From assembly GCF_000577275.2 (NCBI RefSeq), contig NZ_HG916855.1:620001-684000 (forward strand): 64,000 bases of DNA, in the 5' to 3' direction. This DNA comes from Rhizobium favelukesii. GTDB lineage: Bacteria > Pseudomonadota > Alphaproteobacteria > Rhizobiales > Rhizobiaceae. The notes beneath the pieces are model-generated. The model was given only the letters and a program-made list of their open reading frames with translations, did no database searches and had not been told where the DNA came from. The translations under genes and the position numbers were made by a program. Below are positions 3,320 to 57,213 of the stretch, one piece after another; positions within the stretch are counted from its first letter, which is position 1; each line of letters opens with the position of its first letter.

Positions 3320-3416
3320 AAAGGGGCCCTAGGCGTCGCCGACTGTTACTAATGCTTTTGTAAATTAGCGCAAGCTGATACTATCGCGGCGCGGGTACTA
3401 TACTACGAGGCTCAAC

Positions 3417-4163
3417 ATGCGGCTCGGCGCGATATCTGGTGTCTTTTTGGGATGGGCCGCGATTTGTATTTTGGCGGGCTTTGTTGTTGCCGACGAAGAT
3501 GACATGACCACAGGTGAACGGCTCTCTGCATTGTTGCGCGCCGGCCGGACTGTCATCTCGGGTCATCAAAAGCTCATCAACGACGAATCTCTAGGAAAAA
3601 AGGATCTCACGGGTCAACGTGTCGTCAACGAAGCGCTGCAGATCTTTGCCCAGCGCAAGGGCGATGCCGTATCGGATCAGAATTTCAGCCTTCTCGATAA
3701 GCAATTGTTCGATGCGCAGGTCGCCGCGATAAAGGAAGTTGTCGACGAACATCAAAGCATGATCGATATGAAGGGTGTGGGCTTCAAGGGGTTCATTCCC
3801 TCGACCTTCGCCCGATTGGTCAATGAACGTTTCGAGGAAAAGGTCGGCGATAAGGCGAAGATGAAGGTGACGGCGCCGGAGGAGCTGATCCGCAATCGCA
3901 AGGCGCGCCCGGATGATTGGGAGCAGCACGTCATAGAGAACAATTTTCTGTCTCCCGATTGGCCAAAAGGCAAATCCTTCACCGAGGAGGTGGGGGTAAA
4001 CGGCCGCCAGTCTTTTCGCATGCTGATCCCTGAATATTACTCGGCATCCTGCCTGACGTGTCACGGCGGACCCAAAGGCGAGGTCGACGTGACAGGCTAC
4101 CCAAAGGAGGGTAAAGCTGAAGGCGATTTGGCAGGTGCGATCAGCATTACGCTGTTCAAATGA
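3417..4163 (+). CDS. DUF3365 (Tll0287-like) exported c-type heme sensor protein
   Basis: The protein has 248 residues. The N-terminal hydrophobic segment (residues 4-25, GVFLGWAAICILAGFVV) is a signal peptide or anchor, so the protein is probably periplasmic. The rest matches the DUF3365/Tll0287-like fold, a PAS-like sensor domain. It ends with a heme-binding motif CLTCH at residues 212-216, in the context YYSASCLTCHGGP, and the usual DLAGAISITL tail. It overlaps the following histidine kinase by an ATGA, so the two are translationally coupled. A role as heme-based redox or gas input to that kinase is an inference from coupling. Confidence 0.8.
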   Translation: MRLGAISGVFLGWAAICILAGFVVADEDDMTTGERLSALLRAGRTVISGHQKLINDESLGKKDLTGQRVVNEALQIFAQRKGDAVSDQNFSLLDKQLFDAQVAAIKEVVDEHQSMIDMKGVGFKGFIPSTFARLVNERFEEKVGDKAKMKVTAPEELIRNRKARPDDWEQHVIENNFLSPDWPKGKSFTEEVGVNGRQSFRMLIPEYYSASCLTCHGGPKGEVDVTGYPKEGKAEGDLAGAISITLFK

Positions 4164-6874
4164 GCGCCTTCGTCACCATTCCAATGCGGATCGGCCGCCT
4201 GACGGATCGAAAGATACCGCTTCGCCTTATCTGTCTTTCGGCCGCGCTTTTGGGCGCGTTGCTCCTCAGCGTCGCCTTCATGGCGCATGATCTGCGTGAA
4301 AATCAGCGGCGTGTTGAGGAGGCGAATGGGCGCTTTCATATGTTCGACGATGCTGCCAAGGCGCATCGCCATTTTGGCGAGGTCCGCTATTGGCTGACGG
4401 ATCTGTCGGTCAGCCTGTTGACCCTCTCGGAACGGCGCGCGCAAGAAGCCCGCCAAGCGCTGGAACAAGATCTGGCCCGCATCAAGGTCTTCGCGCCCGA
4501 TGAAGCGAACACGATCCTACAGGGTTCGAACGCCTACTTTGAAAAGGCGATGGAGGCCGTTGACGCCTACACCAATGACAACAGGGTCATAGGCAACTCC
4601 CGGCTGGCGGCCGCCAGAAGCTATAGCGATCAAATCGATTCCGTTCTCATGTCGCTCGAACAACGCCTCGAGAACGAAGCCGATCTGGCGCGCGACGCTG
4701 CCGATGCGACGGCGCGCAACACCTATATGCGAGCTCTGATCGCAGCCGGCGTGACGACGCTGGCCTGTATTCTGATGACCTGGCTGGTGCTGCGCTCCAT
4801 CCTCGTGCCACTCGGCCGGATCGACAGGGCGATGACGCAGTTGACGAGGGGGCAGGAGGATGTCGAACTGCCGCCAGAAGGCAGCGATGAATTCGGAAAA
4901 GTTTCAAAGACGTTGCGATTGCTGCGTGACAGCCAGGCTGAGCGTCGAGAGCTAGAAGCGATTGCCGAGCGCCAGCGCAATACGGTGATGACAGCAATCG
5001 AGACCATTCCCGATGGGTTCGCGTTTTTTGACGCGAGCGACCGGCTGGTTTTGGTCAACCAACGCTATCTTCAACTGTTTCCGGAGACTGCGGACCTGAT
5101 GACGCCTGGAAGGGCCTTTGAAGATATTGTACGTGCGCAGGCAGAACGCGGCACGACCGATATCGGAAGCGGCGGGATAGAGAGTTGGGTCGCTGAGGCC
5201 ATGCAGCGTCACCGTGATCCGCAGGGCATGATCGAGCGGCAATTCGCCAATGGAACATGGCTGCGCATCGCCAAGCGAAAGACGCCGGAGGGCGCCACCG
5301 TGGCGGTCTACACGGATATATCGGATTTGAAGAACCGACAGGCGGAGCTGGAGGAGGCAAGGCGTGGCGCAGAGGTCGCCAGCGAAGAAAAGAGCCGTTT
5401 CCTCGCCTCCATGAGCCACGAGCTGCGCACTCCTTTGAATGCGATCATCGGTTATAGCGAAATGCTCATCGAGGATGCCGGCGATCTCGGACAGACCGGG
5501 TTCATTGCGGATCTCAACAAGATTATGGGCTCGGGACGCCATCTCCTGGCGCTCATCAACGACGTTCTCGATCTCTCCAAGATCGAGGCGGGCAAGATGG
5601 AGCTCTACGTCGAGCGCCTCAGTCTAAGACAGCTTCTTGCCGACGTTCAAAATACCGTAGCGCCGCTGATCGCCAAGAAGGGCAACCGTCTGATGGTGAG
5701 TGTCTCCGTCGAGCAGGACCAGATCGAGACCGATAAGACCAAGCTGCGGCAAAATCTGTTTAATCTTCTCTCCAATGCCGCCAAATTTACGGAGAACGGC
5801 GAGATCAAGCTTGCGGTGCGACGTTACGAGGACGGAGTTGGTGAATGGCTCGAATTTGCCGTCAGTGATAGTGGAATCGGCATGACGAAGGAGCAGCAGC
5901 AAAAGCTCTTCCAAGCATTCGTACAGGTGGATTCGTCGACGACGCGGAATTACGGCGGCACCGGCCTCGGGCTGACCATCACGCAACATTTCGTCAAGAT
6001 GATGGGTGGTGCCATTGCCGTCGAGAGCGAATTCGGAAAGGGCTCGACCTTCCGCTTCACAATCCCTGCGATCACGAAAACAGATATTCTCCAGGGAAAT
6101 ACGCCGCAAAGCGATATCCTGGAAGGTGCGAGCGCGCATCCAACGGTTCTCGTGATTGATGATGAGGCGCGGGCTCGCAATTTCGTCTCCGACGCCGTTC
6201 GCGGCGCAGGCTTTAGCGTCATCGAGGCGACGGGTGGAGAAGAGGGCTTGGCAAAAATCCGTCGATTGCACCCGGACGCAATCGTCCTTGACGTGATCAT
6301 GCCGGGTCAAGACGGTTGGTCCGTCCTGCGTGAAATCAAGTCGGACAAGGCGATCTGCGATATTCCCGTCATCCTCGCAACGGTTGTCGCCGATCGCGAG
6401 ATGGGCCTGGCCTTCGGTGCCGTGGACCATCTGATCAAGCCGATCGACCCCCGGCAACTCGTCGATACCCTAAATGCAGTCGCCGGCGAAGCACGTCATG
6501 ATGTGCTTATCGTTGACGACGACCCCGCAACCCGCGATCTTTTCCGCAGGGTGCTTGTCCGCGAGGGTTGGCGGGTGCGGGAGGCAGCCGACGGTCGCCA
6601 TGGTCTTGATCAACTCGAGGCCGCACGGCCGACGATTATGGTTCTCGACCTGATGATGCCGAACATGGACGGTTTCACGCTCCTTCAGGCGATCAAAGAC
6701 AGGCGCGACTTGGCAGATATCCCAGTCGTTATCGTCACGTCGAAAGATTTGACGCGAGAAGAGATGGATTGGTTGGGCGTTCGCGCGAATGAAGTCGTCA
6801 GAAAAGGAACCGAAGGCCGCACCGATCTGATTGCAGCTTTAAAGCGGCATCTTCCGCAAAAGGAAGAGGCGTGA
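4160..6874 (+). CDS. Membrane hybrid sensor histidine kinase with two receiver domains
   Basis: The protein has 904 residues. Its order is: TM1 (about 22-42), a periplasmic helical region, TM2 (about 190-212), HAMP (213-265), PAS (about 275-390), HisKA with MSHELRTPLNAIIGY (phospho-acceptor His420), HATPase (N-box NLFNLLSNAAKF, DSGIGM and TGLGLTI), and two receiver domains at about 660-775 and 783-900. The expected phospho-acceptors are Asp711 and Asp830. All catalytic boxes are present. It sits between the heme-domain protein and a response regulator and overlaps the former. Phosphate may flow to its own receivers and to the next gene product. The signal is unknown. Confidence 0.9.
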   Translation: MSAFVTIPMRIGRLTDRKIPLRLICLSAALLGALLLSVAFMAHDLRENQRRVEEANGRFHMFDDAAKAHRHFGEVRYWLTDLSVSLLTLSERRAQEARQALEQDLARIKVFAPDEANTILQGSNAYFEKAMEAVDAYTNDNRVIGNSRLAAARSYSDQIDSVLMSLEQRLENEADLARDAADATARNTYMRALIAAGVTTLACILMTWLVLRSILVPLGRIDRAMTQLTRGQEDVELPPEGSDEFGKVSKTLRLLRDSQAERRELEAIAERQRNTVMTAIETIPDGFAFFDASDRLVLVNQRYLQLFPETADLMTPGRAFEDIVRAQAERGTTDIGSGGIESWVAEAMQRHRDPQGMIERQFANGTWLRIAKRKTPEGATVAVYTDISDLKNRQAELEEARRGAEVASEEKSRFLASMSHELRTPLNAIIGYSEMLIEDAGDLGQTGFIADLNKIMGSGRHLLALINDVLDLSKIEAGKMELYVERLSLRQLLADVQNTVAPLIAKKGNRLMVSVSVEQDQIETDKTKLRQNLFNLLSNAAKFTENGEIKLAVRRYEDGVGEWLEFAVSDSGIGMTKEQQQKLFQAFVQVDSSTTRNYGGTGLGLTITQHFVKMMGGAIAVESEFGKGSTFRFTIPAITKTDILQGNTPQSDILEGASAHPTVLVIDDEARARNFVSDAVRGAGFSVIEATGGEEGLAKIRRLHPDAIVLDVIMPGQDGWSVLREIKSDKAICDIPVILATVVADREMGLAFGAVDHLIKPIDPRQLVDTLNAVAGEARHDVLIVDDDPATRDLFRRVLVREGWRVREAADGRHGLDQLEAARPTIMVLDLMMPNMDGFTLLQAIKDRRDLADIPVVIVTSKDLTREEMDWLGVRANEVVRKGTEGRTDLIAALKRHLPQKEEA

Positions 6875-6888
6875 GGGGAGAGGTTCGG

Positions 6889-7254
6889 ATGGTCAAGATT
6901 CTCCTCGTCGAGGACAATGAGATGAACCGCGATATGCTTTCCCGCCGCTTGGAGAAACGTGGTTACGAAGTTGTCAGCGCAACGGACGGGCTCGCCGGGG
7001 TCGAGGCGGCCGTGACCACGAAGCCGGACTTGGTTTTGATGGATATGAGCCTTCCTGTCATCGACGGCTGGGAAGCAACGAAGCGGATCAAAAGAAATCC
7101 CATCACCGCTGCCATACCGGTGATCGCACTTACCGCTCATGCTATGGCCGGCGATCGTGAAAAGGCAATCGAGGCCGGTTGTGACGACTACGACACCAAA
7201 CCGATCGAACTACCGGGTCTGCTCGATAAGATCGCCCGTTTGACCGGAGGGTAA
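6889..7254 (+). CDS. Single-domain response regulator (CheY/DivK-like)
   Basis: The 121-residue receiver starts at the ATG at 6889, with ggggagagg just upstream. A GTG at 6871 would overlap the kinase end and is less likely. The acidic pair (VEDNEMNR), the phospho-acceptor Asp52 in VLMDMSLP, the Thr in ALTAHAMAG and the Lys in DTKPIE are all present. There is no output domain, so it probably acts by protein contact or as a phosphate shuttle between the kinase and the cyclase. It is 14 bases after the kinase stop and 5 bases before the next start. Confidence 0.88.
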   Translation: MVKILLVEDNEMNRDMLSRRLEKRGYEVVSATDGLAGVEAAVTTKPDLVLMDMSLPVIDGWEATKRIKRNPITAAIPVIALTAHAMAGDREKAIEAGCDDYDTKPIELPGLLDKIARLTGG

Positions 7255-7259
7255 CGATC

Positions 7260-8813
7260 GTGGCTCAATCTCGGGACATCGGGCATCGCATGTATATCGC
7301 CAGAATCGCCCAAAACATCGTCGATCCGGCCCAGGCCATTCTGGGCTATCAGGAACTGATTACGGAAGAGGTGCGGGACGCGGGACCCAGTGATGCCTTG
7401 CCGGACCTTGAGAGGATCTTGAGCGCCGCGCGGGAGCTGAATACATTGATCAAGCGTCTGCTCGACATCGAAATGCCGGAGAATGGGGATGCCCCCTCGC
7501 TCGATAGGCTTTTGCGCCATGATCTCAGAACGCCCATGAATGCCATTCTCGGCTATTCCGAGATGTTGATCGAGGACTTCGCCGATACCTTGCCGGCGCG
7601 TCTGCTGGAGGACGTGTCGAAGGTCATCCGTGAAAGCCGCAATTTGCTTGCGCAGATTGACGAAACACTTGATGGATCGCCCCCCGATGTGGATCAGGAA
7701 TTTCAGCCTAAATTCGATGGAACGATCGCCGCCGATCTGGCTAGGACAATGGCGACCCGTTCTTCGGCCGTCACGGAACGGGCAGGACGTATCCTCGTCG
7801 TCGATGACACGGCGTCAAATCGCGACCTCCTGTCCAGACGCCTCCGCCGCGATGGACACACCGTCGTTGCGGCAAGCTCCGGCGAGGAGGCGCTTCGTAT
7901 CTTCGATCAGCAGGAATTCGACCTCGTATTGGCAGATGTCTTGATGCCGGACATGAACGGTATAGAGCTTCTCGGCCAGCTTAAATCGGACGGACACTTT
8001 CGCGAGATCCCGGTCGTGATGATTTCCGGCCTGAAGGATGACGACGCCGTTGCCCGTTGCATTGAGGCGGGGGCCGAGGACTATCTCCGCAAACCGATCA
8101 ATCCCGTCTTGCTGAAAGCGCGCATTGCCGCCTGCCTCGAGCGTCGTCGTTGGCGAACGCGCGAAAAGCAATATCTGGCGCAGATAGAATTCGAGAAGGA
8201 ACGGGCAAACGCCCTACTGCATGCGATTCTTCCGAAGCAGGTGGTGAAGCGGCTTGCCGATGGAGAGGAAGTGATCGCCGATCGCATCGATATGGTCACT
8301 ATTATTTTCGCCGACATCGTCAACTTCACGGAATTTGCATCGCGAACGCCGGCTGCAGCACTGGTCCGGAGACTGGGAGACCTGTTTAGTCGTTTCGATG
8401 AACTTGCTGATCAATATGGCATCGAAAAGATCAAGACGATCGGTGATGCCTATATGGCGGCGTCGGGACTACCGGATTCTCGCGTGGATCACGCCGTCGC
8501 GGGCGTTGCGTTCGCCAAGGCGCTGCTGGCCGAAATGTCTGGAGGCGTCGATGATGGATCAGCGCTCAGCTTGCGGATTGGCATCCATAGCGGGCCGGTC
8601 ATCGCTGGCCTAATCGGTCGGAAACGCTTTGGCTATGATGTTTGGGGACATACGGTCAATGTTGCAAGTCGTATGGAGTCTTGCGGCGTACCAGGTCAAA
8701 TTCAGATATCGCAAACAACGTTCGATGCGCTTGGCGAGGGACGTTTGCCCGCCCGCCGGGAAATCATGAATATTCGCGGCATTGGGAGATGCACAACCTA
8801 CCTTTTGGAATAA
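7260..8813 (+). CDS. Receiver-linked class III adenylate cyclase with histidine-kinase-like N terminus
   Basis: The protein has 517 residues from a GTG at 7260, just after ggagg. Its order is: a degenerate dimerisation-like segment (residues 10-65, QAILGYQELI, no His), a second one with LRHDLRTPMNAILGY (His87), no ATPase domain, a receiver (about 178-295, Asp226 in LADVLMPDMNG), then a class III cyclase domain (about 330-515). The metal aspartates are Asp352 and Asp396; Lys390 (EKIKTIGD) and Asp460 (GYDVWG) favour ATP over GTP. It probably makes cAMP under control of phosphorylation from the upstream kinase. No terminator is obvious after it. Confidence 0.85.
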   Translation: MAQSRDIGHRMYIARIAQNIVDPAQAILGYQELITEEVRDAGPSDALPDLERILSAARELNTLIKRLLDIEMPENGDAPSLDRLLRHDLRTPMNAILGYSEMLIEDFADTLPARLLEDVSKVIRESRNLLAQIDETLDGSPPDVDQEFQPKFDGTIAADLARTMATRSSAVTERAGRILVVDDTASNRDLLSRRLRRDGHTVVAASSGEEALRIFDQQEFDLVLADVLMPDMNGIELLGQLKSDGHFREIPVVMISGLKDDDAVARCIEAGAEDYLRKPINPVLLKARIAACLERRRWRTREKQYLAQIEFEKERANALLHAILPKQVVKRLADGEEVIADRIDMVTIIFADIVNFTEFASRTPAAALVRRLGDLFSRFDELADQYGIEKIKTIGDAYMAASGLPDSRVDHAVAGVAFAKALLAEMSGGVDDGSALSLRIGIHSGPVIAGLIGRKRFGYDVWGHTVNVASRMESCGVPGQIQISQTTFDALGEGRLPARREIMNIRGIGRCTTYLLE

Positions 8814-9035: not shown

Positions 9036-10697
9036 GTGTCCGTCCACAAACGGTAAACCGCTGAAATTATTGGAGGAATCGCGATATTGCCGCGGGCAAA
9101 GCCCGGCGGTTTCAGGTACACTTTAGATCAAGCCATTGATTCTAAAGACAAACCCGCAACCGCCGGAGCCGACAATGCGCCAAGAACGCACCGTCCAATC
9201 CAATATATTCGATCTTTTCGCCGAACACGAGATCGGCCGCGAGCTGAAAGCCATGTCGCAATGGCTGGATGAGCATCGTGATCTGCTCGGGCTGGTAGCG
9301 CAGGACCTGCGCCGCCACGGCGTCAAGGAGACCGGCCGCGAGGGCCTGCCGGCGGAGGCCGTGCTGCGTTGCGCCCTGCTCAAACAACACCGTCAGTTGA
9401 GTTATGAGGAGCTGGCCTTTCATCTGGAAGATTCCGCCTCGTTCCGGGCTTTTGCCCGGCTGCCATGGGGGTGCAGCCCGAAGAAGTCGGTCTTGCACAA
9501 GACGATCAGCGCGATCCGGGCCGGGACCTTTGAAGCGATCAATCGCGTGCTGTTGACAAGCGCCCGGCAGGACAAGGTGGAACGCGGCAAGGTCGTGCGC
9601 ATCGACAGCACCGTCACTTCGGCGCTGATGCACGAACCGAGCGACAGCAGTCTTTTGTGGGACTGCGTGCGGGTGATGGTGCGGCTGTTGCAGCAGGCGG
9701 CTTCCTTGGGCAGCGCCATCTTATGGCACGATCACTGCCGCGCGGCGAAGAAGCGATCCCGGGCGATCCAATTTACCCGCGGTCGTCCGAAACGAGTTCA
9801 GCACTATCGCGCGCTGCTCAGGATCACGCGCACCACCTTGAGCTATCTCGAACAGGCGGCGGCGCAGCTGCCCTTGGCGGCGGGCCCGGCGGTCGAACGC
9901 TGGCAGGCCCAAGTCCGCCACTATAAGCCGCTGATCGAACGGATCATCGCCCAGACCGAGCGGCGGGTCCTGGCCGGCGAGGCGGTGCCGGCTGGCGACA
10001 AGCTGGTCAGTTTGTTCGAGCCGCATGCCGACATCATCGTCAAAGGCAGCCGCGACGTCGAGTATGGCCATAAGATCAATTTGACCACCGGCACAAGCGG
10101 GCTGATCCTCGACCTCGTCGTCGAAGCCGGCAACCCGGCCGACAGCGAGCGCTTGCTGCCGATGCTGGAGCGTCACATTGGCATCTGGGGCGAGCCGCCA
10201 CGGCAGGCCGCCGCCGACGGCGGCTATGCCAGCCGCGAAAATCTGAGCGGAGCCAAGGCCTGGGGCGTGCGAGACATGGCCTTCCACAAGAAGTGCGGCC
10301 TCAAGATCGAAGACATGGTCAAAAGCCGTTGGGTCTATCGCAAGCTACGCAACTTCCGCGCCGGCATCGAGGCCGGCATCTCCTGCCTCAAACGCGCCTA
10401 CGGCTTGGGGCGCTGCACCTGGCGTGGGCTCGACCACTTCAAGACTTATGTCTGGTCCTCGGTGGTCGCTTACAATCTCGCCCTCTTCGCCCGCCTCAGA
10501 TCGAACTGACATCCCATGTCGCCAGCCAAAACCGGACCGGCGGAACGCCGGCAGTTCCCAATGCGCGCATTTCCACCAGAAATCCTGGCCGCCGCAATTA
10601 GCACCCATGAGCCACACCGCATGGCTTCAAAGCGGCCACCAAGCGGAACCCAAACGCGCTGCAAGCACAAGAAAACCAGCCGTTTATGGACGGAAAC
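9036..10697 (+). mobile_element. Complete ISNCY-type insertion sequence, 1662 bp
   Basis: The ends are imperfect inverted repeats: gtgtccgtccacaaacgg at 9036-9053 and, reversed, gtttccgtccataaacgg at 10697-10680 (two mismatches in 18). Both ends are flanked by tagcta (9030-9035 and 10698-10703), a likely 6-bp target duplication. One transposase gene fills the element and is intact, so it could still be mobile. Confidence 0.8.
9175..10509 (+). CDS. ISNCY-family transposase
   Basis: The protein has 444 residues from the ATG at 9175 (MRQERTVQSNIFDLFAEHE); the earlier TTG at 9136 has no ribosome site. The N-terminal part has the conserved EIGRELKAMSQWLDEH block. The middle carries IDSTVTSALMHEP, the first catalytic Asp region, and the C-terminal part has ADGGYASRENL and IEAGISCLKRAYGLGRC, as in DDE transposases of this group. 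The frame is intact within the element's inverted repeats. Confidence 0.85.
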   Translation: MRQERTVQSNIFDLFAEHEIGRELKAMSQWLDEHRDLLGLVAQDLRRHGVKETGREGLPAEAVLRCALLKQHRQLSYEELAFHLEDSASFRAFARLPWGCSPKKSVLHKTISAIRAGTFEAINRVLLTSARQDKVERGKVVRIDSTVTSALMHEPSDSSLLWDCVRVMVRLLQQAASLGSAILWHDHCRAAKKRSRAIQFTRGRPKRVQHYRALLRITRTTLSYLEQAAAQLPLAAGPAVERWQAQVRHYKPLIERIIAQTERRVLAGEAVPAGDKLVSLFEPHADIIVKGSRDVEYGHKINLTTGTSGLILDLVVEAGNPADSERLLPMLERHIGIWGEPPRQAAADGGYASRENLSGAKAWGVRDMAFHKKCGLKIEDMVKSRWVYRKLRNFRAGIEAGISCLKRAYGLGRCTWRGLDHFKTYVWSSVVAYNLALFARLRSN

Positions 10698-11582: not shown

Positions 11583-11939
11583 ATGGTTGCGTATCGGTTT
11601 TACCCGCGCGCGGACGCGGCGCAGGACAAAATTTGGCGGGATACCGTTGAGAAATGGGGTGAGAAGCAGGCGGTGACTTACATCACCGGCTTGCATACTC
11701 ATTTGCAGCGGTTGTGCGAGGAAAAGGCGATATGGCGGAAGCTACCGCAACGGCATGCGGTTCCCGCTGATGTCAAACGTGAGGCGTATTTCAGCCGCTA
11801 CGAACATCACTACGAGTTCTTCCGAGAAATCGATAACGGCGATCTCAGTGTGATGAGCATTTTGCACGAGCGGATGAATGTGCCGGTGCGCCTTGCTGAG
11901 GACCTGGCGGTACTACTCGGAGAAAGCCGAGCCTTCTAA
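11583..11939 (+). CDS. ParE/RelE-family toxin
   Basis: The protein has 118 residues. YRFYPRADAAQDKIWRDT at the start and SRYEHHYEFFREIDNGDLS near residues 75-95, followed by the LHERMNVP strand, match the ParE/RelE superfamily fold. It follows the ParD-like gene directly. The superfamily includes gyrase poisons (ParE) and ribosome-dependent nucleases (RelE), and which this is cannot be told by reading. The gene looks intact. Confidence 0.8.
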   Translation: MVAYRFYPRADAAQDKIWRDTVEKWGEKQAVTYITGLHTHLQRLCEEKAIWRKLPQRHAVPADVKREAYFSRYEHHYEFFREIDNGDLSVMSILHERMNVPVRLAEDLAVLLGESRAF

Positions 11940-13047: not shown

Positions 13048-13296
13048 ATGGCCGCACCACAACTCTCTGTCCGAAGCTCCAAGGCGCGAGATTTGGCTCA
13101 TAGGCTTGCTCGCCGCGAAAATCGTTCGATTGCCGAGGTGGTCGAACGTGCGCTCGAATCCTATGAGATCCGGGAGGCAGGGCGCGAGCCTGCTTCGAGC
13201 TTCTATTCGCGTCTTGGGGCGCAAACCGGCACAGACATCGATCTGGAAGCTGTAGTCCGTGAAAATCGCCATCGGCATCAGGGCGTCGATCTTTGA
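13048..13296 (+). CDS. vapB: VapB-family antitoxin
   Basis: The protein has 82 residues, with a strong ribosome site (aaaggag) 8 bases before the ATG at 13048. The N terminus (LSVRSSKARDLAHRLARRE, then SIAEVVERALESYE) has the short DNA-binding fold of VapB antitoxins. The C-terminal part is charged. The stop codon overlaps the TTG start of the PIN-domain toxin (TTGA), so the two are coupled. Repression of its own operon is expected from the family. Confidence 0.78.
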   Translation: MAAPQLSVRSSKARDLAHRLARRENRSIAEVVERALESYEIREAGREPASSFYSRLGAQTGTDIDLEAVVRENRHRHQGVDL

Positions 13297-13706
13297 TCTT
13301 TCTCGACACCAACGTTGTTTCTGAGACCTTGAAGAAGGCACCAAATGAGGCAGTGATCGCTTGGCTGGTTCGATTCGATGCGGAATTAGCACTGCCAACA
13401 GTGACGATCGCCGAGATCGCCTTCGGGATCCAGAAGATAAGGCCGGATCAGCGCGCCGATCGGCTGGAACAAGGGTTGCAAGAGTGGCGTCGTCGTTTTG
13501 CTGATCGCATATTCGGATTGACCGAAGAAGCCGCACGCGCTTACGGGGAGATTATGGGCGATGCCGCTCGTAAGGGACGCGGAATGTCGGCACCCGATGG
13601 AATGATTGCCGCGATTGCCCGGGTAAACGGTGGCCGCTTAGCAACCCGCAATCTCACGGATTTCGAGACCACAGGGCTCGATCTCATATCTCCGTGGGAC
13701 TTCTAA
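13293..13706 (+). CDS. vapC: VapC-family PIN-domain ribonuclease toxin
   Basis: The protein has 137 residues from a TTG overlapping the antitoxin stop. MIFLDTNVVSE gives the first PIN-domain Asp; TIAEIAFGIQK carries the conserved Glu; SAPDGMIAAIA and LATRNLTDFE give the later acidic residues. Full length and all expected acidic residues suggest an active RNase. VapC toxins usually cut tRNA or rRNA; the target is not predictable here. Confidence 0.85.
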   Translation: MIFLDTNVVSETLKKAPNEAVIAWLVRFDAELALPTVTIAEIAFGIQKIRPDQRADRLEQGLQEWRRRFADRIFGLTEEAARAYGEIMGDAARKGRGMSAPDGMIAAIARVNGGRLATRNLTDFETTGLDLISPWDF

Positions 13707-47298: not shown

Positions 47299-48360
47299 TC
47301 AGGCAGCGACGCGCAGTTCGGGCTCGCCATCCTCCACCGCGCCGATGATGCGCGCGGCGGGATAGCCTGCTGCAACGATTTTCCCGAGCAATTCCCTTAC
47401 CCGATCCTTGCTGCATGAAACGAGAAGCCCCCCGGACGTCTGGGGGTCGGTGAGTATATGGCGTCGCCATATTGGGAGGTCTTCAGGCAGGGAGACGTTC
47501 TCACTGTAACTTGCCCAGTTCCGGTGCGATGCGCCAGTCACGAAACCCTGCTCTGCGAGCCCGGCGGCGCGCGCAAGAAAAGCCATGTCCCTGACACTGA
47601 GCGATATCCGCTTGTTCGATCCTCGAGCCATCTCAAGGGCGTGACCAAGAATGCCGAAACCGGTGACATCCGTCATGGCATGGACGCCGGTATCTAGAGC
47701 AAGGTCTGCTCCGACGCTATTTAGGAGCGTCATCGACGCGATGAGTTCGCCATAGGCGTCCGGTGGCAGCGCACCTTTCTTGAATGCAGCCGAATAGATA
47801 CCCACGCCGAGTGCTTTCGTCAGGATCAGTGCATCGCCGGGTCTTGCGCCGCTGTTGCGGCGCAAGCTGGAAATCGGGCATGTGCCGACGACCGCCAGGC
47901 CGTAGATAGGTTCCGGCGAATCGATCGAATGGCCGCCGGCGACGGGAATGCCGGCCTCTGCGCAGATGGCACTGCCGCCCTTCAATATCTCCCCCACTGT
48001 TTCGGTTGGCATTTTGTCGATCGGCATGCCGAGAATGGCAAGCGCCATCAGTGGCCTGCCGCCCATGGCATAAACGTCGGAGATGGCGTTGGTCGCGGCG
48101 ATGCGGCCGAAGTCGAAAGGATCATCGACCATCGGCATGAAAAAATCGGTGGTCGCGATCAGGCAGGTTTCATCGTCAAGCTGCCAGACAGCGGCATCAT
48201 CGCCGGTCTCCGTCCCGACAAGCAGCCGGGCAAAGGGAGCGGCAACAGGCTGACCCGCAAGCAGCTGCTGCAGAACCGATGGCGCAAGCTTGCAGCCGCA
48301 GCCGCCTCCATGAGCGAGCGCTGTCAGGCGGATGGGCGATGTTGCAGTCGGACTATCCAT
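47299..48360 (-). CDS. selD: Selenide, water dikinase (selenophosphate synthetase)
   Basis: The protein has 353 residues from the ATG at 48360 (ggagg upstream). It makes selenophosphate from selenide and ATP, the selenium donor for SelA. The N-terminal motif [14 protein letters not shown] holds the catalytic Cys and Lys, with Cys instead of selenocysteine. Later parts are [53 protein letters not shown] and [15 protein letters not shown]. It lies on the opposite strand to the rest of the selenium operon. The upstream gene on the same strand is truncated and overlaps its start. Confidence 0.95.
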
Positions 48361-48757
48361 GATGGCCTCCCATAAAGGTTGCAATTGGACGCTGCCGCCG
48401 CTGTCGGTCAGGCAGTAATTTCGCGGGACCGGATCGCGTATCTGAACGCATCCGGATCAAGGCAATCGAGCCTTGCCGACCGGCGTCGTCCCGCACGATC
48501 CTGGCGCTGGCCGCATTGGTCGTCCAGGTAATGTCGCCCGGCCTGTTCCAATCGCCAGCCCGAAGAACGGGCAGCGGAATCCATGCGCGCGCGGCACTGT
48601 CGGCGCGCAAAAGCTCGACACGAGTCGTAATCTCGAACGTTCGCCACGTGGAAGGTCTCGGCGCAAAAGCCATATTTGCAAAGGCTATTTTCGGCAACCC
48701 GGCCATTGCCGACAGCGCGGCTGCCGCTTTCAGAAGTTCACGACGACTGATCATCAT
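48353..48757 (-). pseudogene. Truncated transglutaminase-like exported protein
   Basis: The start MMISRRELLKAAAALSAMAG is a Tat signal. The mature part begins PSTWRTFEITTRVELLRADS and then RAWIPLPVL, as in the N-terminal domain of transglutaminase-like proteins, which usually run past 300 residues. Here the similarity ends after about 105 residues, before any catalytic Cys-His-Asp, and the frame stops inside selD. Loss of the 3' part by deletion is likely, perhaps when selD was joined to it. Confidence 0.5.
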
Positions 48758-49130
48758 TCCCTCCCGATTTGAGTTGCCGGTGCCGGCAGCCATCAGCACC
48801 TGCGGGCGCTCTTAAGATGCAGGCGTCGAACGTCCGAGACCGCTCGTGCGTGCAGCGGTTCACAGTCTTGTGTCGTAGGAGAATTCCAATGTTGCAGGAA
48901 AGAGGTCGAGCACAATCCGAACGGCTCCGCCATTTCCGGCGTGCGGCAACAACCCAATGCGCAATGCCCCGAGACTCGGGAGCGGCAAGCAATCCCATCT
49001 GCTTATCATCGTCCCTTTACGGCTGAACGTCAATTTTAGGGCGATCATAGGATGGTTCAGAAACAGTCAGCCACGGTTCTCGCACAGCTTTGCCGTATGG
49101 CACGACGATGACATCATAATTTTGGGCTTC

Positions 49131-49148
49131 TTATTGATTTGACAATAA
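49131..49148. promoter_or_regulatory. Palindrome upstream of the formate dehydrogenase operon, weakly FNR/FixK-like
   Basis: ttattg-atttga-caataa is a perfect 6+6 palindrome 111 bases before the operon start. Its core TTGAT-N4-CAATA matches the anaerobic box TTGAT-N4-ATCAA in about 8 of 10 positions. The rest of 48758-49258 has no recognisable gene. Confidence 0.3.
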
Positions 49149-49258
49149 AATGTGCTGACCTATTTTTCAAAAACGAGCTATATCTCGAACTGTAGAGAAT
49201 GTCTCCAATTCGCCGGGTTGCCGCGTCGGCAAAGCCGGTTTCAGGGGAGGTATCTGCC

Positions 49259-52200
49259 ATGAACATGGAACTGTCGCGGCGCCAGTTTCTCGCGGTGGCC
49301 GGCGCAGGTGTTGCAAGTACGGCGCTCGGAGCTTTTGGCTTTGCAGACGTCGAAGCAGCCCATGCCGAAGCGATCCGCGCTTTCAAGCTCGTAAATACCA
49401 CCGAAACCCGGAACACCTGTCCATACTGCTCTGTCGCATGCGGCATCATCATGTATTCGAAGGGTGACCTGAAAAAAGGCGAGCAGGCAGAGATCATCCA
49501 TATCGAGGGCGATACCGACCATCCCACAAATCGCGGTACGCTCTGTCCGAAGGGCGCAGCGCTTTTGCATTTCGTCAAGGCCGAGACGCGTCTGAAGTAT
49601 CCGATGATGCGCAAGCCCGGGTCGGACAAGTTCGAGCGCATTTCCTGGGATGATGCGCTGAACCGCATCGCGCGACTGATGAAGGACGACCGCGACGCCA
49701 ATTTCGTCGAACGGAACGCTGCCGGCCTTCCGGTGAACCGATGGACGACGACCGGCTTCCTCGCCGCGTCTGCGACAACGAATGAGACGGCGTGGGAGAC
49801 CTATAAGGTTGTGCGCAGCGCCGGAATGCTGGTCTTCGACAATCAGGCGCGTGTCTGACACGGCCCTACGGTAGCCAGTTTGGCTCCAACATTCGGCCGT
49901 GGCGCAATGACCAACTCCTGGACCGACATCAAGAACACCGATCTTGTTGTCATCATGGGCGGTAACGCCGCCGAAGCACACCCTTGCGGGTTCAAGTGGG
50001 TTACGGAGGCGAAAGCCAATCGCGGCGCAAGGCTGATCGTCGTCGATCCGCGGTTTACCCGTTCGGCCTCGGTCGCCGATCTTTATGCGCCGATCCGTCA
50101 GGGAACGGATATCGCTTTCCTCCTCGGCGTCATTAACCACTGCATCGGCAACGACAAGGTGCAGTGGGGCTATGTCAAGGCCTTCACAAACGCGGCTTAC
50201 ATCGTCAAGGACGGCTTCGCCTACAAGGACGGGCTCTTCACCGGGTATGACGAGGCAAAGCGCGGCCATGATATGTCCAGCTGGGATTATGTGATCGGTG
50301 ACGACGGCTATGCCGTGGTTGACGACACGCTGAATAATCCGCGCTGCGTATGGAACCTCCTAAAGGAACATGTTTCCGCCTATACGCCGGAGATGGTGGA
50401 GCGCATCTGCGGCACGCCGAAGGACAAGTTCCTGAAGGTAGCCGAAATGGTTGCGGAATGCTCGTCACCGACCAAGGTGATGACCTCGATGTACGCGCTC
50501 GGCTGGACGCAGCATTCCAAGGGCTCGCAGAACATCCGCGCCATGGCGATGCTGCAACTGATCCTCGGCAATATCGGGATGCGCGGCGGCGGTATGAATG
50601 CGCTGCGCGGCCACTCCAACATCCAGGGCCTCACGGACGTCGGATTGATGTCGAACCTGTTGCCCGGCTATATGACGCTGCCGAACGAGAAGGAAGTGGA
50701 TTTCGACACCTACATGTCGACGCGCGGCTTCAAGCCGCTCCGTCCGAACCAGATGAGCTACTGGCAGAACTACAGGAAATTCTTCGTGAGCTTCCTGAAG
50801 GCGATGTGGGGTTCGGCGGCGACGCCGGAAAACACGTTCGCCTACGACTGGCTGCCGAAGCTCGACGTGCCCGGCTATGACGTCCTGCGTGCTTTCGAAC
50901 TCATGAACCAGGGCAAGATGACGGGCTATATTTGCCAAGGGTTCAATCCGCTTCTCGCTATTCCAAACCGGGCGAAGGCGACCGCGTCCCTGTCGAAGCT
51001 CAAATTTCTCGTCACAATGGATCCGCTGGACACCGAAACTGCACGATTCTGGGAGAATCACGGCGAGTTCAACGATGTCGATTCTTCGCAGATCCACACG
51101 GAGGTCATCCAATTGCCTTCGACCTGCTTTGCCGAAGATGAGGGTTCGCTGACGAATTCCAGCCGTTGGCTGCAGTGGCACTGGCCGGGGGGCACGCCTC
51201 CTGGCGAAGCCAAGACCGACAACTGGATCATGGCGCAGATCCACGTGCGCCTGAAGGAGCTCTACCGCAAGGAAGGTGGGAAATTCCCCGATCCGATCAT
51301 CAATCTCGATTGGGCATACGCCGATCCGGACGAACCGGCCGCGGAGGAACTCGCCAAGGAGATCAACGGGCGGGCGCTTGCCACCGTGTACGACACGGCA
51401 GATCCTGCCAAGGTTGTGGCCGAGGCAGGCAAGTTGGTGCCGAGCTTTGCCGCACTTCGCGACGACGGCTCGACGTCCTCAGCATGCTGGATCTATTCCG
51501 GCTGCTTCAACGAGAACGGAAACAACATGGCCCGGCGCGACACGTCGGACCCGGACGAGACCGGCGCCTATCTGAAATGGGCGTTCTCCTGGCCTGTCAA
51601 TCGCCGTATTCTCTATAACCGAGCATCGGCGGACCTGTCCGGCAAGGCATGGGATCCGAGCCGCAAGCTGATCGAATGGGATGGTGCAAAGTGGTCGGGT
51701 TATGATGTGCCGGACATCGCGCCGACGGCCAAGCCTGCCGATGTCGGGCCGTTCATCATGAACCCGGAAGGCGTCTCGCGCCTTTTCACCAGGACGATGA
51801 TGCGCGACGGGCCGTTCCCAGCTCACTACGAGCCATTCGAATCGCCCGTTGCCAATCTTGTTGCCCCGGCAGTGCGCGGCAATCCCGCGGCGCGGGTGTT
51901 TGAGGACGATTTCAAGCAATTTGCCGAGCCAGCCTCCAAGGAGTTTCCGTATGCGGCGACGTCTTATCGCCTCACCGAGCATTTCCACTACTGGACGAAG
52001 CATGTGTGGGTGAATGCCGTGCTGCAGCCGGAATTCTTCGTCGAGATATCGGAGGAGCTCGCGGTGGAAAAAGGCATCGCCAAAGGCGGCTGGGTGCGCG
52101 TCTGGTCCAAGCGCGGCTCCGTCAAGGCCAAGGCGGTCGTGACCAAGCGGATCAAGCCCTTGATATGCGACGGCAAGCCCGTCCATGTCGTGGGCATCCC

Positions 52201-52345
52201 ATTGCATTGGGGCTTTACCGGCGCCGCGAAAAAAGGTTTCGGTCCAAATTCGCTGACACCTTTCGTCGGCGACGCAAACATAGAGACGCCTGAATACAAG
52301 GCGTTCCTGGTCAACATAGAGCCCATCGCCGGGCCGGTGGCATAG
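49259..52345 (+). CDS. fdoG: Formate dehydrogenase-N type alpha subunit, selenocysteine-containing (reads through TGA)
   Basis: The protein has 1028 residues if TGA at 49856-49858 is read as selenocysteine (residue 200). Start is the ATG at 49259 with aggggagg. The Tat motif SRRQFL (residues 6-11) sends it to the periplasm. The Fe-S ligands lie in TCPYCSVACGIIMY and LCPKGAALLHF. Around the TGA the text is VFDNQARV-U-HGPTVASL, as in E. coli FdnG/FdoG. The molybdopterin domain continues to the end (52345). It oxidises formate and passes electrons to the beta subunit 12 bases downstream. A SECIS-like hairpin follows the TGA, and sel genes lie in the same operon. Confidence 0.96.
49859..49901 (+). 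promoter_or_regulatory. Bacterial SECIS element in the alpha-subunit mRNA
   Basis: Directly after the UGA, cacggcc (49859-49865) pairs perfectly with ggccgtg (49895-49901). The inner part has a short agcc/ggct stem with loop agttt (about 49873-49885). Position and outline are like the fdnG SECIS that SelB binds. Loop bases were not modelled. Confidence 0.75.
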
Positions 52346-52357
52346 GAGACGGCAGCC

Positions 52358-53299
52358 ATGTTCCGTCCTGTTCCAAATCCCACTGTTGCGCCTGAGAGCC
52401 CTAGATTCGGCGAGCGGGATCTCATCCGCCGTTCGGCCTCAAGCGTGACGCCGCCGGTAGAGCGCCAGACCGAGGTGGCGAAGCTGATCGATGTCTCCAA
52501 ATGCATCGGCTGCAAGGCCTGCCAGTCGGCCTGCATTGTGTGGAACGACACGCACCCGGAGATCGGCGTCAACACTGGCGTCTACGATAATCCGCATGAC
52601 CTGACACCTGACATGTTCACGCTCATGCGCTTCACCGAATGGGAAAATCCCGAGACTAACAATCTGGAATGGCTGATCCGCAAAGACGGCTGTATGCATT
52701 GCGAAGATCCAGGCTGCCTCAAGGCCTGCCCGGCGCCAGGCGCAATCGTGCAATATTCGAACGGCATCGTCGATTTCGTCCACGAAAACTGCATTGGTTG
52801 CGGCTACTGCATCAGAGGATGCCCGTTCAATATTCCGCGTATCTCCCAGGTCGATCACACCGCCTACAAATGCACGCTCTGCTCCGACCGCATCGCCGTC
52901 GGCCAAGGTCCCGCCTGCGCCAAGGCCTGTCCGACGCAGGCCATTGTCTTCGGCACGAAGGAGGAAATGAAGCAGCACGCAGAAGGGCGGATCACCGATC
53001 TCAAGTCCCGCGGCTATGCCAATGCCGGCCTTTATGATCCGCCCGGCGTCGGCGGCACACATGTCATGTACGTGCTGCACCACGCCGACCAGCCGGAAAT
53101 TTATGCCGATCTGCCGAATAATCCGAGGATAAGCCCGGTCGTCGAGGCCTGGAAGGGGGTCACGAAATATGCCGGGCTCGCTGTCATGGGTGTGGCAGCC
53201 GTCGCCGGCCTCGTTCATTATCTGGTCAACGGACCAAACCAGGTTTCCGAGGAGGACGAAGAGGCGGCGGAGAGACTGACGGGAGACGGTTCCTCATGA
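52358..53299 (+). CDS. fdoH: Formate dehydrogenase beta subunit (iron-sulfur protein)
   Basis: The protein has 313 residues. Four ferredoxin-like cysteine clusters are seen: [38 protein letters not shown] and CTLCSDR with [10 protein letters not shown] membrane helix near residues 266-285 ([20 protein letters not shown]) anchors it to the periplasmic face. It carries electrons from the alpha subunit to the cytochrome b subunit. The stop overlaps the gamma-subunit start. Confidence 0.95.
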
Positions 53300-54003
53300 G
53301 CTCGAACACAAACGACGATATGGCAAAAGGCGACAGCGTCCACCCCGGTAAGCCCGTCACGGTCGATCGCTATACCGCAGGAGCAAGGATCAACCACTGG
53401 ATCACGGCGGCAAGCCTCGTGCTCTTGGCGCTCTCCGGCATGGCGCTGTTCCATCCGAGCCTGTTCTTCCTGACCGCGCTCTTCGGCGGCGGTCCCTTGA
53501 CGCGCATCATTCATCCATGGATTGGCGTTGTTCTCTTCTTCAGTTTTCTCGGCCTTTTCCTGCGTTTCTGGAAAGCCAACCTTTGGAGGCGGGAAGACAG
53601 CAACTGGCTCGCGCACGGCCGCGATGTTCTGGCCGGCCATGAGGAGCGCGCGCCGGAGGTCGGTAAATACAATGCCGGTCAAAAGGTCGTGTTCTGGTCA
53701 ATGTCGATCTTGATCATCGTCCTGATAACAACGGGCACCACAATCTGGGACCAATACTTTGCCGGCTATACCACGATCGAGCTGAAGCGATGGGCGGTCT
53801 TGTCGCATTCAATCGCAGCCGTCGTCATCATCAATGTGTGGATCATTCATGTCTATTCAGCCTTGTGGGTACGCGGTACGATACGGGCAATGACGCGCGG
53901 CTCTGTGACAGGTGGGTGGGCGTGGCGGCATCATCGCAAATGGCTGCGTGAACTGGTCACCAGGTCAACAGGGAAAAAATCGGGGGGTACGCCCGCCGAA
54001 TGA
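53296..54003 (+). CDS. fdoI: Formate dehydrogenase gamma subunit (cytochrome b556)
   Basis: The protein has 235 residues and four membrane helices. [20 protein letters not shown] gives the first heme-ligand His; [19 protein letters not shown] and [20 protein letters not shown] provide the others. It passes electrons to quinone in the inner membrane. It overlaps the beta-subunit gene by an ATGA and precedes fdhE by 52 bases. Confidence 0.92.
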
Positions 54004-54055
54004 CCGGGCGTTACGGTCTGCATCACGTGGCCCGTGCGGTTCGTGAGGGAGTGTC

Positions 54056-54973
54056 ATGAAAGGCAAAAGCGCGGTTGTGCCGGATCCAACGGCAATTGGA
54101 GACGTATCATCGCCACCGTTTGCGCGTCTTCCAGATCCCGCTTTACTCTTTTTGGCCAGGTCGAAACGTCTACGTCAGTTGGCTGAAGTCAGCATCCTGG
54201 CGCCATACCTGGTTTTCCTCGCGCAGCTCTTTGAGGCCCAACACCATATCCAAGCGGATCTGCCCCTTCCGGAACATCCGGATCCCGAGTCGATCAAGCG
54301 TGTGCGGGAGTTTGAAATGCCGCCGCTCGACCGCGACACGATAGAAGTCGACGGAACGATCAGCGCGATATTCGACGGCCTCTTTGCAGCTGTCGATACC
54401 ATCGAAAAACCGGCTGCTGCCGCCGAGGCGCTTGGCCGCGTCACCAGGACCGATGCCGGACAACGCATGTCCATGGCGCGAGCCGTATTCTCCGGCGCGT
54501 TGCCGGCGGATGCGATTGCCGAGCATGTGTTCGTCTGGGCTGCACTTCAGGTGCATTTTGCTCGGCTCGCGTCAGTTCTCGACGCGGCAATGCTGGTGCC
54601 TGTGGCCGATGGCCTGTGTCCTGCATGTGGCAGCGGGCCGGTGTCGTCCATGGTCGTCGGCTGGCCGGGCTCGCATGGCGCAAGGTACTGCTCATGTTCG
54701 CTTTGCGGAACATTGTGGCACTATGTCCGGGTCAAATGCACACTTTGCGGCTCCACCAAAGGGATCGGCTATCAGGAGATAGAAGGGCAGGGCGGGGCCG
54801 TCAAAGCCGAAACCTGTGATGAATGCCAGGGCTGGTCGAAGATAATCTATCAGAACACAGAGCCGGCGGCCGATCCGGTCGCCGACGATGTGGCAAGTCT
54901 CAATCTGGACCTTCTGATGCGCGAAGGCCCGTATCGCCGGGGTGGATTTGCGCCGCTTCTGGCCGGCTTTTGA
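54056..54973 (+). CDS. fdhE: Formate dehydrogenase accessory protein FdhE
   Basis: The protein has 305 residues. The C-terminal half has the rubredoxin-like pairs GLCPACGSGPVSSM, YCSCSLCGTLWHYVRVKCTL with CTLCGSTKG, and AETCDECQGW. FdhE binds the iron-sulfur subunits before Tat export and is needed for active enzyme. Gene order alpha-beta-gamma-fdhE is the same as in E. coli fdoGHI-fdhE. It is 10 bases upstream of selA. Confidence 0.93.
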   Translation: MKGKSAVVPDPTAIGDVSSPPFARLPDPALLFLARSKRLRQLAEVSILAPYLVFLAQLFEAQHHIQADLPLPEHPDPESIKRVREFEMPPLDRDTIEVDGTISAIFDGLFAAVDTIEKPAAAAEALGRVTRTDAGQRMSMARAVFSGALPADAIAEHVFVWAALQVHFARLASVLDAAMLVPVADGLCPACGSGPVSSMVVGWPGSHGARYCSCSLCGTLWHYVRVKCTLCGSTKGIGYQEIEGQGGAVKAETCDECQGWSKIIYQNTEPAADPVADDVASLNLDLLMREGPYRRGGFAPLLAGF

Positions 54974-54983
54974 GGTGGGAGAG

Positions 54984-56390
54984 ATGGACGCCAGTGCTAA
55001 CCTGCGGGAGATTTCATCGGTCGACCAAATCCTGAAAACGGCTCCTGCTGGCGCCGCGATCGAATGTTTCGGGCGAATCGCGGTCACGCAGGCCATTCGA
55101 GCTATCCTTTGTGAAACGAGGGAGAAGGTACGCCAGGGAAAGGACGTCCCATCGCGCGAGGAAATTGCGGCGGCGGCGTTTTCGAGGCTCGACGCCAACG
55201 ACCGCCCGATGCTTCGCTCCGTCTTCAACCTGACCGGGACGGTCCTCCATACCAATCTGGGCAGGGCCATCCTCGCGGAAGCAGCAGTCGATGCCGCGGC
55301 AGCGGCTATGCGCGAGGCTGTCGCGCTCGAATTCGATCTTAACAACGGCAAGCGCGGCGAACGGGATGATCATCTGCGCGCGCTGATCTGCGAATTGACG
55401 GGCGCCGAAGATGCAACCGTCGTCAACAATAATGCTGCGGCCGTCCTTCTGGTGCTGAACAGCCTGGCGGCCGACAGGGAAGCCATCGTCTCGCGGGGCG
55501 AACTGATCGAAATCGGCGGGGCCTTCCGCATGCCGGACATCATGGAGCGCGCGGGTGTCCGTCTTGTCGAGGTCGGCACCACGAACCGCACCCATGCCAG
55601 GGACTACAGGGATGCCATCGGCCCCGATACGGGCTTGATACTGAAGGTCCACACGTCGAACTATCGAATAGAGGGTTTTACCAAAGAGGTCGGAGCGCGC
55701 GAACTTTCGGGGATCGCCCACGACAAGGGCGTGCCGCTGATCAACGATCTCGGTTCCGGTACCCTGGTCGATCTGGTCCGTTTTGGGCTCGCATACGAAC
55801 CCACCGTTCGCGAGGCGATCTGCGAGGGTGCCGATGTCGTCACCTTTTCAGGCGACAAGCTTCTCGGCGGGCCACAGGCCGGCTTCATCGTCGGGCGCCG
55901 GACACTCATCGAGACGATCAACAAGAACCCGATGAAACGCGCGCTGCGGGTCGATAAGATAAGGTTGGCCGCTCTCGAAGCGACACTGAAACTTTATCGC
56001 GATCCGGAGCGCCTGGGCGAGCGCCTCCCCGTCATGCGACTGCTCACACGTTCTCAGCTTGAAATCAAGACGCAGGCGGAACGGCTGGCACCTGTCGTCA
56101 AGGGCCTGCTGAAGGCCGCTGTCCACGTATCTGTCGTTGCTTGCGAAAGCCAGATCGGCTCCGGCGCCCTGCCGCTGTCCTGCGTGCCCAGCGCGGGGCT
56201 TGCGCTGACGCCGATCGAAGGCAGCGGCAGCGCGCTCGCAGAACTGACGTCTTCGTTCAGACGGCTGCCGATCCCGGTCATTGGTCGAATCGAACGCGGA
56301 TCGCTGGTGCTGGATCTGCGCTGTCTCGAAGATGAGGAGAGTTTTGCGGCTAATTTGATGAGCCTCCCCGCCGGTCAGGGGAGGGTCTGA
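54984..56390 (+). CDS. selA: L-seryl-tRNA(Sec) selenium transferase
   Basis: The protein has 468 residues from the ATG at 54984 (gaggtgggag upstream). It uses selenophosphate to convert Ser-tRNA(Sec) to Sec-tRNA(Sec). Motifs are FNLTGTVLHTNLGRA, VNNNAAAVLLVLNSLA, ISRGELIEIGGAFRMPDI-like text (SRGELIEIGGAFRMPDIM), LKVHTSNYRIEGF and the PLP lysine in FSGDKLLGGPQAG (Lys292). It is full length. The stop overlaps the start of the next gene (TGATG). Confidence 0.96.
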   Translation: MDASANLREISSVDQILKTAPAGAAIECFGRIAVTQAIRAILCETREKVRQGKDVPSREEIAAAAFSRLDANDRPMLRSVFNLTGTVLHTNLGRAILAEAAVDAAAAAMREAVALEFDLNNGKRGERDDHLRALICELTGAEDATVVNNNAAAVLLVLNSLAADREAIVSRGELIEIGGAFRMPDIMERAGVRLVEVGTTNRTHARDYRDAIGPDTGLILKVHTSNYRIEGFTKEVGARELSGIAHDKGVPLINDLGSGTLVDLVRFGLAYEPTVREAICEGADVVTFSGDKLLGGPQAGFIVGRRTLIETINKNPMKRALRVDKIRLAALEATLKLYRDPERLGERLPVMRLLTRSQLEIKTQAERLAPVVKGLLKAAVHVSVVACESQIGSGALPLSCVPSAGLALTPIEGSGSALAELTSSFRRLPIPVIGRIERGSLVLDLRCLEDEESFAANLMSLPAGQGRV

Positions 56391-57211: not shown

Positions 57212-57213
57212 TA

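Follow-up and report, generated by a model that had tools for sequence, protein, structure and literature searches.

A conserved Rhizobium operon that probably couples a stand-alone heme Cache protein to a bundle-bearing hybrid kinase and a class III cyclase

Introduction

Does a heme protein whose gene directly adjoins that of a histidine kinase act as the separate sensor part of the kinase, and does its signal end in cyclic AMP (cAMP)? The question is raised by four close-packed genes on one strand, at positions 3417-8813 of a 64,000-nt stretch of Rhizobium favelukesii DNA (NZ_HG916855.1, positions 620001-684000, forward strand; the whole stretch is called the window below). The contig, 1.93 Mb of a genome of 7.57 Mb, is most likely a megaplasmid. 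A sequence-only reading of this DNA had described the four genes as an operon (a DUF3365 protein with a CLTCH motif, a hybrid kinase, a single receiver, and a receiver-cyclase) leading from periplasmic heme through phosphotransfer to cAMP. The open reading frames and Pfam matches confirmed the operon; the description had left out the DHp repeats of the cyclase, the periplasmic bundle of the kinase, and the redox roles of stand-alone DUF3365 proteins. The set is a conserved unit in some soil and root-nodule bacteria, in which the heme protein, outside the inner membrane, appears to be the separate sensor part of the kinase.

Results

Pairing of the heme gene with a bundle-bearing gene

The gene order is a DUF3365/Tll0287-like protein with CLTCH, a hybrid histidine kinase with two receivers, a single receiver, and a receiver-class III cyclase. 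Genes 1 and 2 share 4 bases, as do genes 2 and 3 when the latter is read from its listed GTG, and genes 3 and 4 are separated by 5; all four frames are open with the key residues intact. The features of the first two genes are as follows.

3417..4163, + strand: stand-alone DUF3365/Tll0287-like (sCache_heme) protein, 248 aa, with a signal- or anchor-like N-terminus (PF11845, 64 bits, cut-off 24.1)
4050..4064, + strand: c-type heme motif CLTCH, residues 212-216 (CXXCH in 46/47 group members)
4160..6874, + strand: hybrid histidine kinase, with transmembrane segment (TM), periplasmic four-helix bundle, TM, HAMP, PAS_7, HisKA (His420), HATPase_c, REC (Asp711), and REC (Asp830) (Pfam)
4310..4744, + strand: periplasmic four-helix bundle, residues ~51-195, presumed docking site of the heme protein (predicted structure model)

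Genome samples of the family (297 genomes), order (397), and class (385), each including the R. favelukesii genome, were searched with the heme protein. Strong relatives (E <= 1e-50) were found in 14 family genomes (15 places), in 20 order genomes (29 at E <= 1e-3), and in 7 class genomes (8 at E <= 1e-10). After the samples were merged and repeats removed, 39 places in 38 genomes remained. Eight named relatives (L016-L020, L022-L024) were kept outside the 39, and all eight carry the four genes, the receiver frame of L023 being split in the record. The orthologous proteins in the family-level and named loci are 42-100% identical to those of the window, far beyond chance. The counts leave out G1018/L099 (E 3.4e-21, a stop-broken frame on a short contig), L021 (Eggerthellaceae), and nine weak order-level matches of the classical stand-alone type (E 1e-4 to 9e-4). 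No related kinase, receiver, or cyclase was found near the weak matches in eight stretches of 3.1-9.0 kb each, the ninth (G501) being a short locus only.

The heme gene adjoins a bundle-bearing gene in 38 of the 39 places; in the remaining one (L097), the neighbour is cut at the contig end and gives a partial bundle match of 15 bits. Thirty-seven of the bundle genes encode kinases and one a chemoreceptor (L098). Two kinases (L078, L092) run off the contig, and the other 35 loci have enough DNA for the following genes to be seen. The single receiver is present in all 35. The output gene is a DHp-REC-cyclase in 26 loci and a REC-cyclase without DHp in three (L089, L095, L096), giving 29 of the cyclase type; a convergent REC-SpoIIE gene is present in three (L037, L087, L088), a SpoIIE gene without receiver lies upstream in one (L038), and no output gene is in view in two (L090, L091). 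The expectation that the four genes stay together in relatives was thus borne out for the heme gene, kinase, and receiver (35/35), the cyclase joining them in only 29/35. The SpoIIE assignments come from Pfam in L037, L087, and L038 and, in L088, from a profile built on L037 and L087, and the three REC-cyclases were assigned by profiles rather than by Pfam. The profiles were partly built from family-level loci, which therefore match by construction. L076 and L077 are partly masked; the stretch of L077 is masked beyond the receiver, including the whole cyclase domain, and the locus was counted as a cyclase from its DHp-REC part and a relative (P0034) that lies on a contig of equal length and bears all three domains.

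Conversely, 249 order genomes were searched with a profile covering the bundle and HAMP, the N-terminal part of the kinase, with at most 10 candidates scored per genome. All 17 matches at E <= 1e-50 have a heme-gene match within 126 bases. Weaker matches begin at E 3.7e-17; among those listed, the majority are confined to the C-terminal part (TM2 and HAMP), with a small number extending into the bundle (G315, 58-262; G330, 78-260). Because all 17 genomes were already among the order-level matches of the heme protein and at most 10 candidates were scored per genome, this is a consistency check, not an independent sample.

Exchange of parts in related arrangements

In L098, a chemoreceptor gene (HAMP, MCPsignal) comes 73 bases after the heme gene. 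The periplasmic part of its product gives 113 bits against the bundle profile, covering positions 47-249 of 262, and has retained both the RYW-TDL motif and the NRV--N motif. The R. favelukesii genome itself holds a parallel operon (L123; C62 near 825-831 kb, G000:C62:818000-834000) with a Peripla_BP_6 protein, a hybrid kinase, a single REC, and a REC-cyclase. Its kinase has the PAS_7-HisKA-HATPase-REC-REC order of the window kinase and matches the TorS sensor model PF21689 with 23 bits, below the cut-off of 27. Since a binding protein of the ATP-binding cassette (ABC) transporter type stands in the place of the heme gene there, this analogy supports the first gene as a sensor slot.

Heme protein and bundle

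The structure model of the heme protein has the Tll0287/Cache fold. In the group of 47 members (39 places and eight named relatives), L096 is the exception to the CXXCH motif; it retains a REC-cyclase-type operon, and its heme protein may reflect loss or an assembly error. Once the first ~20 matched residues are set aside, none of the 47 members has a Cys outside CXXCH; the second, axial Cys expected of stand-alone cluster 1 (Cys/His ligation) is thus absent there. Among the nine classical stand-alone relatives, namely the weak order-level matches with frames of 180-276 residues, eight have a Cys in GPxxAxxxC, which would be the axial Cys, and the ninth is masked at that site. The profile-profile alignment of this branch to the window protein starts after that Cys, so the site is not covered. 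CcmE and CcmF are present in the genome, and the N-terminus of the heme protein is signal-like by eye; with CXXCH, these features would fit a covalent c-type heme on a periplasmic protein.

The available portion of a 2026 preprint (PMC12889525) divides heme-Cache proteins into stand-alone ones with redox roles and fused ones that sense nitric oxide (NO): a stand-alone P. putida protein (C59) has Cys/His ligation, binds NO weakly, and is redox-like in character, and a HAMP-bearing P. azotoformans protein without that Cys releases NO slowly. The words "operon" and "genomic context" are absent from its main text. Because the window group unites a stand-alone gene with a Cys-free heme pocket, its protein is expected to be of the sensor type, responding to NO in the first place and to redox state in the second.

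In the predicted model of the kinase bundle, LytS, TorS, and QseE were among the best fold matches, and McpS (15.0) and MCP2201 (14.6) scored between LytS and TorS. The bundle probably receives the heme protein. Furthermore, H420, D711, and D830 of the kinase are invariant across 22 aligned sequences, and no match to PF21689 was reported in the window kinase at E <= 0.001.

Single receiver and cyclase

The features of the last two genes are as follows.

6889..7254, + strand: single-domain receiver, acceptor Asp58 counted from GTG (Pfam Response_reg; 22-sequence alignment)
7260..8813, + strand: protein of 517 aa with pseudo-DHp, DHp (His87), REC (Asp226), and class III cyclase domain (Pfam HisKA, Response_reg, Guanylate_cyc)
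7293..7478, + strand: first DHp-like repeat, H-box His replaced (Gln18 in the window) (BLASTP)
7512..7673, + strand: second DHp, RHDLRTP with His87, no HATPase domain (PF00512, 57.7 bits; no PF02518)
8277..8810, + strand: class III nucleotide cyclase domain with adenylate-type Asp352, Lys390, Asp396, Asp460, Asn467, and Arg471 (PF00211, 188 bits)

The receiver frame is listed from GTG 6871 (6871-7254), and relatives agree on a later start, Met7 at 6889. In the cyclase, two-sequence BLASTP comparisons relate the first repeat both to the DHp of the kinase (E 2e-13) and to the repeat that follows it (E 6e-10); among the aligned cyclases the His of the first repeat is replaced mostly by Gln, as read by eye. 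The alignment comprised 34 cyclases, 26 and three from the 39 places and five from genomes without the heme gene. Asp226, which the sequence-only reading had named as the phosphate acceptor, lies in the Response_reg match and is present in 34/34. The catalytic residues D352, D396, K390, D460, N467, and R471 show zero substitutions and 1-2 gaps each. Alignment to mammalian adenylate cyclases gave the two metal Asp (D352/D396), the adenine-type Lys/Asp (K390/D460), and the transition-state Asn/Arg (N467/R471), whose roles we take to be those of the mammalian enzymes.

His87 was found in 30 of the 34 cyclases, in RHDLRTP or close variants, the other four (L089, L095, L096, L122) having a gap. HATPase_c was reported in none of the sequences scanned, which were the window cyclase, L118, and 120 listed relatives. 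An invariant His where the ATPase domain is missing hints at phosphotransfer, at phosphatase activity, or at a fold that serves to dock the kinase.

In the class sample, cyclase matches at E <= 1e-60 occur in 16/385 genomes, eight of them nearly full length; in five of these eight genomes (G824, G743, G763, G966, G1038), nothing matched the heme gene at E <= 1e-10. In G743 (L119), a GAF-domain hybrid kinase is encoded near the cyclase, and DHp-REC-cyclase genes were seen in G824, G763, and G966 (L118, L120, L121).

Genomic setting

The operon stretch (5701 bases) is 100.0% identical to plasmid pT136a of Rhizobium sp. T136, and Rhizobium plasmid records at 94-95% DNA identity cover 98-99% of it; at least 80% of the query is covered in 11 of the 176 plasmid records having a match. 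S. meliloti plasmid records show ~67% identity across 45% of the query. When the S. meliloti copy was the query, pSymB of strains 1021 and 2011 matched the whole stretch at 99.2%.

The neighbour comparison covered 24 loci, with order- and class-level loci outside it. Further conserved neighbours besides the four genes were rejected, no other family occurring in more than four loci; the commonest were an ABC-transporter permease (4/24), an ABC ATPase (4/24), and an Fe/Mn superoxide dismutase (3/24). The dismutase genes (L023:11447-12127, L025:12137-12817, L019:6991-7740) adjoin the operon, lying downstream of it in two of the loci and upstream in the third, and their products have export-type N-termini by eye.

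In the window, the operon is flanked by an ArdC-like antirestriction protein (1525-2937) and a DDE transposase (9136-10509), both assigned by Pfam. A block of ~70 bases upstream (~3347-3416) is conserved in six Rhizobium copies and contains CTAAT...ATTAG in the window copy, the DNA beyond being little conserved; no tie of the block to a known regulator was found. Probable toxin-antitoxin members, a ParE-type protein (11583-11939) and a PIN-domain protein (13293-13706), were also seen. Farther away, 47299-59286 holds a selenocysteine set with a formate dehydrogenase region and selD-like, selA-like, and selB-like frames (named by eye from translations), together with the Rfam elements SECIS_3 (49853-49911) and tRNA-Sec (59173-59264).

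Discussion

The sequences themselves show which genes, domains, and catalytic residues are present, how the genes are linked, and that parts are exchanged. Export of the heme protein, attachment of its heme, and its docking are inferences, and so are the direction in which phosphate moves, the kind of signal, and the sign of its effect on the cyclase. Taken together, we favour, with some reserve, a bipartite periplasmic receptor, a heme Cache protein on a helical bundle, wired to cAMP through His-Asp transfer to the cyclase. The DUF3365 protein would be exported, receive a covalent c-type heme at CLTCH, and dock on the four-helix bundle, at its membrane-distal end. NO or another small ligand at the heme, or a shift in its redox state, would alter the bundle and, via HAMP and PAS, the kinase activity at His420. 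Phosphate would pass to the kinase receivers (Asp711/Asp830), to the single receiver, or to both, and finally to Asp226 of the cyclase, possibly via His87 of its DHp, changing cAMP output. A more far-reaching form of this proposal is a tentative one: a portable two-protein receptor, in which a heme Cache acts in trans on a dedicated bundle plugged onto kinases and chemoreceptors, the kinase form running a His-Asp-His-Asp relay through the ATPase-less DHp of the cyclase, with cAMP thereby governed by NO or redox state in the periplasm.

Several points weigh against the bipartite receptor with cAMP output. The available portion of PMC12889525 assigns redox, not signalling, roles to stand-alone DUF3365 proteins, and the modelled bundle also resembles ordinary chemoreceptors, including ligand-binding ones. 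The path from heme to cAMP drawn by the sequence-only reading fits the gene and domain anatomy, but the cyclase is not obligatory, four of the 35 loci being SpoIIE-type and two having no output in view. The cyclase type is also wider than the heme operon, because five genomes carry a near-full-length cyclase without a heme-gene match. The DHp is not always needed, since three REC-cyclases (L089, L095, L096) are without it.

Some of these points would suit a heme protein that is an electron-transfer or protective partner, with a bundle that, like chemoreceptor bundles, directly detects a small ligand of its own, and genes linked by a shared redox condition. The redox-type behaviour of the stand-alone P. 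putida domain (available portion of PMC12889525), the superoxide dismutase genes with export-type N-termini beside the operon in three of 24 loci (L019, L023, L025), and the rank of the ligand-binding bundles McpS and MCP2201 between LytS and TorS agree with it. However, so loose a link would allow separation, whereas 17/17 bundle kinases lie beside a heme gene, the pair recurs with the chemoreceptor of L098, and the window group lacks the Cys of eight of the nine classical relatives (the ninth masked). We therefore regard this explanation as unlikely.

Less probable still is a bipartite receptor whose main output lies elsewhere, the receivers feeding other partners and the cyclase being one interchangeable end. 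The constant trio with varying output (six of 35 loci without an adjacent cyclase, four of these SpoIIE-type) and the same cyclase type away from the heme gene speak for it; against it, a cyclase gene follows in 29 of 35 loci, with Asp226 in all aligned cyclases. An idle cassette with no present function in this strain, as the mobile-element-bearing megaplasmid, the ArdC-like and transposase neighbours, and the varying flanks might suggest, is hardly credible in view of four open frames with intact key residues and Rhizobium plasmid records matching 98-99% of the stretch at 94-95% identity.

Each part of the operon is of a known kind. What appears new from the sequences is that a stand-alone heme Cache is consistently paired with one particular bundle, whether on a kinase or on a chemoreceptor, and that the cyclase bears a DHp; in the open-licence literature, which leaves most subscription journals outside, neither these features nor the whole gene set was found described. 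If the bipartite receptor is real, it would define a third class of heme-Cache protein, stand-alone yet a receptor subunit, beside the redox and NO-sensing classes given in the available portion of PMC12889525. Part of the unassigned stand-alone heme proteins would then become testable sensors, partner-reading kinases would gain a heme-type partner, and periplasmic NO or redox state would be linked to cAMP in rhizobia. Because the operon lies on pSymB of S. meliloti 1021 and 2011, the proposal is testable in a standard laboratory strain. To our knowledge, the input is known for only a few of the type III cyclases of S. meliloti. Their annotated number is 28, according to the accessible part of PMC13001267.

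Several other class III cyclases invite comparison. In the R. favelukesii genome (G000:C62 near 110 kb), a 530-aa protein (L124) fuses DUF3365 to a class III cyclase domain; sensor family and output type are shared with the window operon, but the fused protein is single and has no kinase domain, the operon having a separate kinase. Cyanobacterial CyaC is a two-component-regulated class III cyclase with a complete histidine kinase in one polypeptide. A receiver directly precedes the cyclase domain in both CyaC and the window protein, whereas here the kinase is a separate protein and the cyclase has two DHp repeats, a HisKA match, and no reported HATPase_c. S. meliloti CyaC is, in the available portion of PMC10463352, one protein redox-regulated by heme B, with six TM helices and two b-type hemes exchanging electrons with ubiquinone. 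Heme-linked redox control of a rhizobial class III cyclase is the shared theme, but that portion does not mention phosphotransfer for CyaC, and no six-TM diheme anchor was seen in the window cyclase, whose 517 residues are filled by DHp repeats, REC, and cyclase domain (judged without a TM predictor).

On the sensor side, the Pfam match, CXXCH, and modelled Tll0287 fold place the first protein in the sCache_heme/DUF3365/Tll0287 family (PF11845; available portion of PMC12889525), although, unlike the classical stand-alone members, its group adjoins receptors in 39 places (one cut by a contig end) and lacks their Cys. The operon shares one arrangement with XylFII-LytS, TorT-TorS, and QseG-QseE, in which the structure of a kinase was solved together with that of a separate envelope protein: a sensor gene, its product probably exported, lies beside a bundle kinase. 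Of the TorT/TorS-type traits, the adjacent separate sensor gene is found with all 17 bundle kinases, and the periplasmic helical bundle is present in the predicted model. The partner in the window, in contrast to the LytS, TorS, and QseE systems, is a heme Cache domain (PF11845). It is not the periplasmic binding protein of the TorT/TorS type, though such a protein is found in the parallel operon of the same genome.
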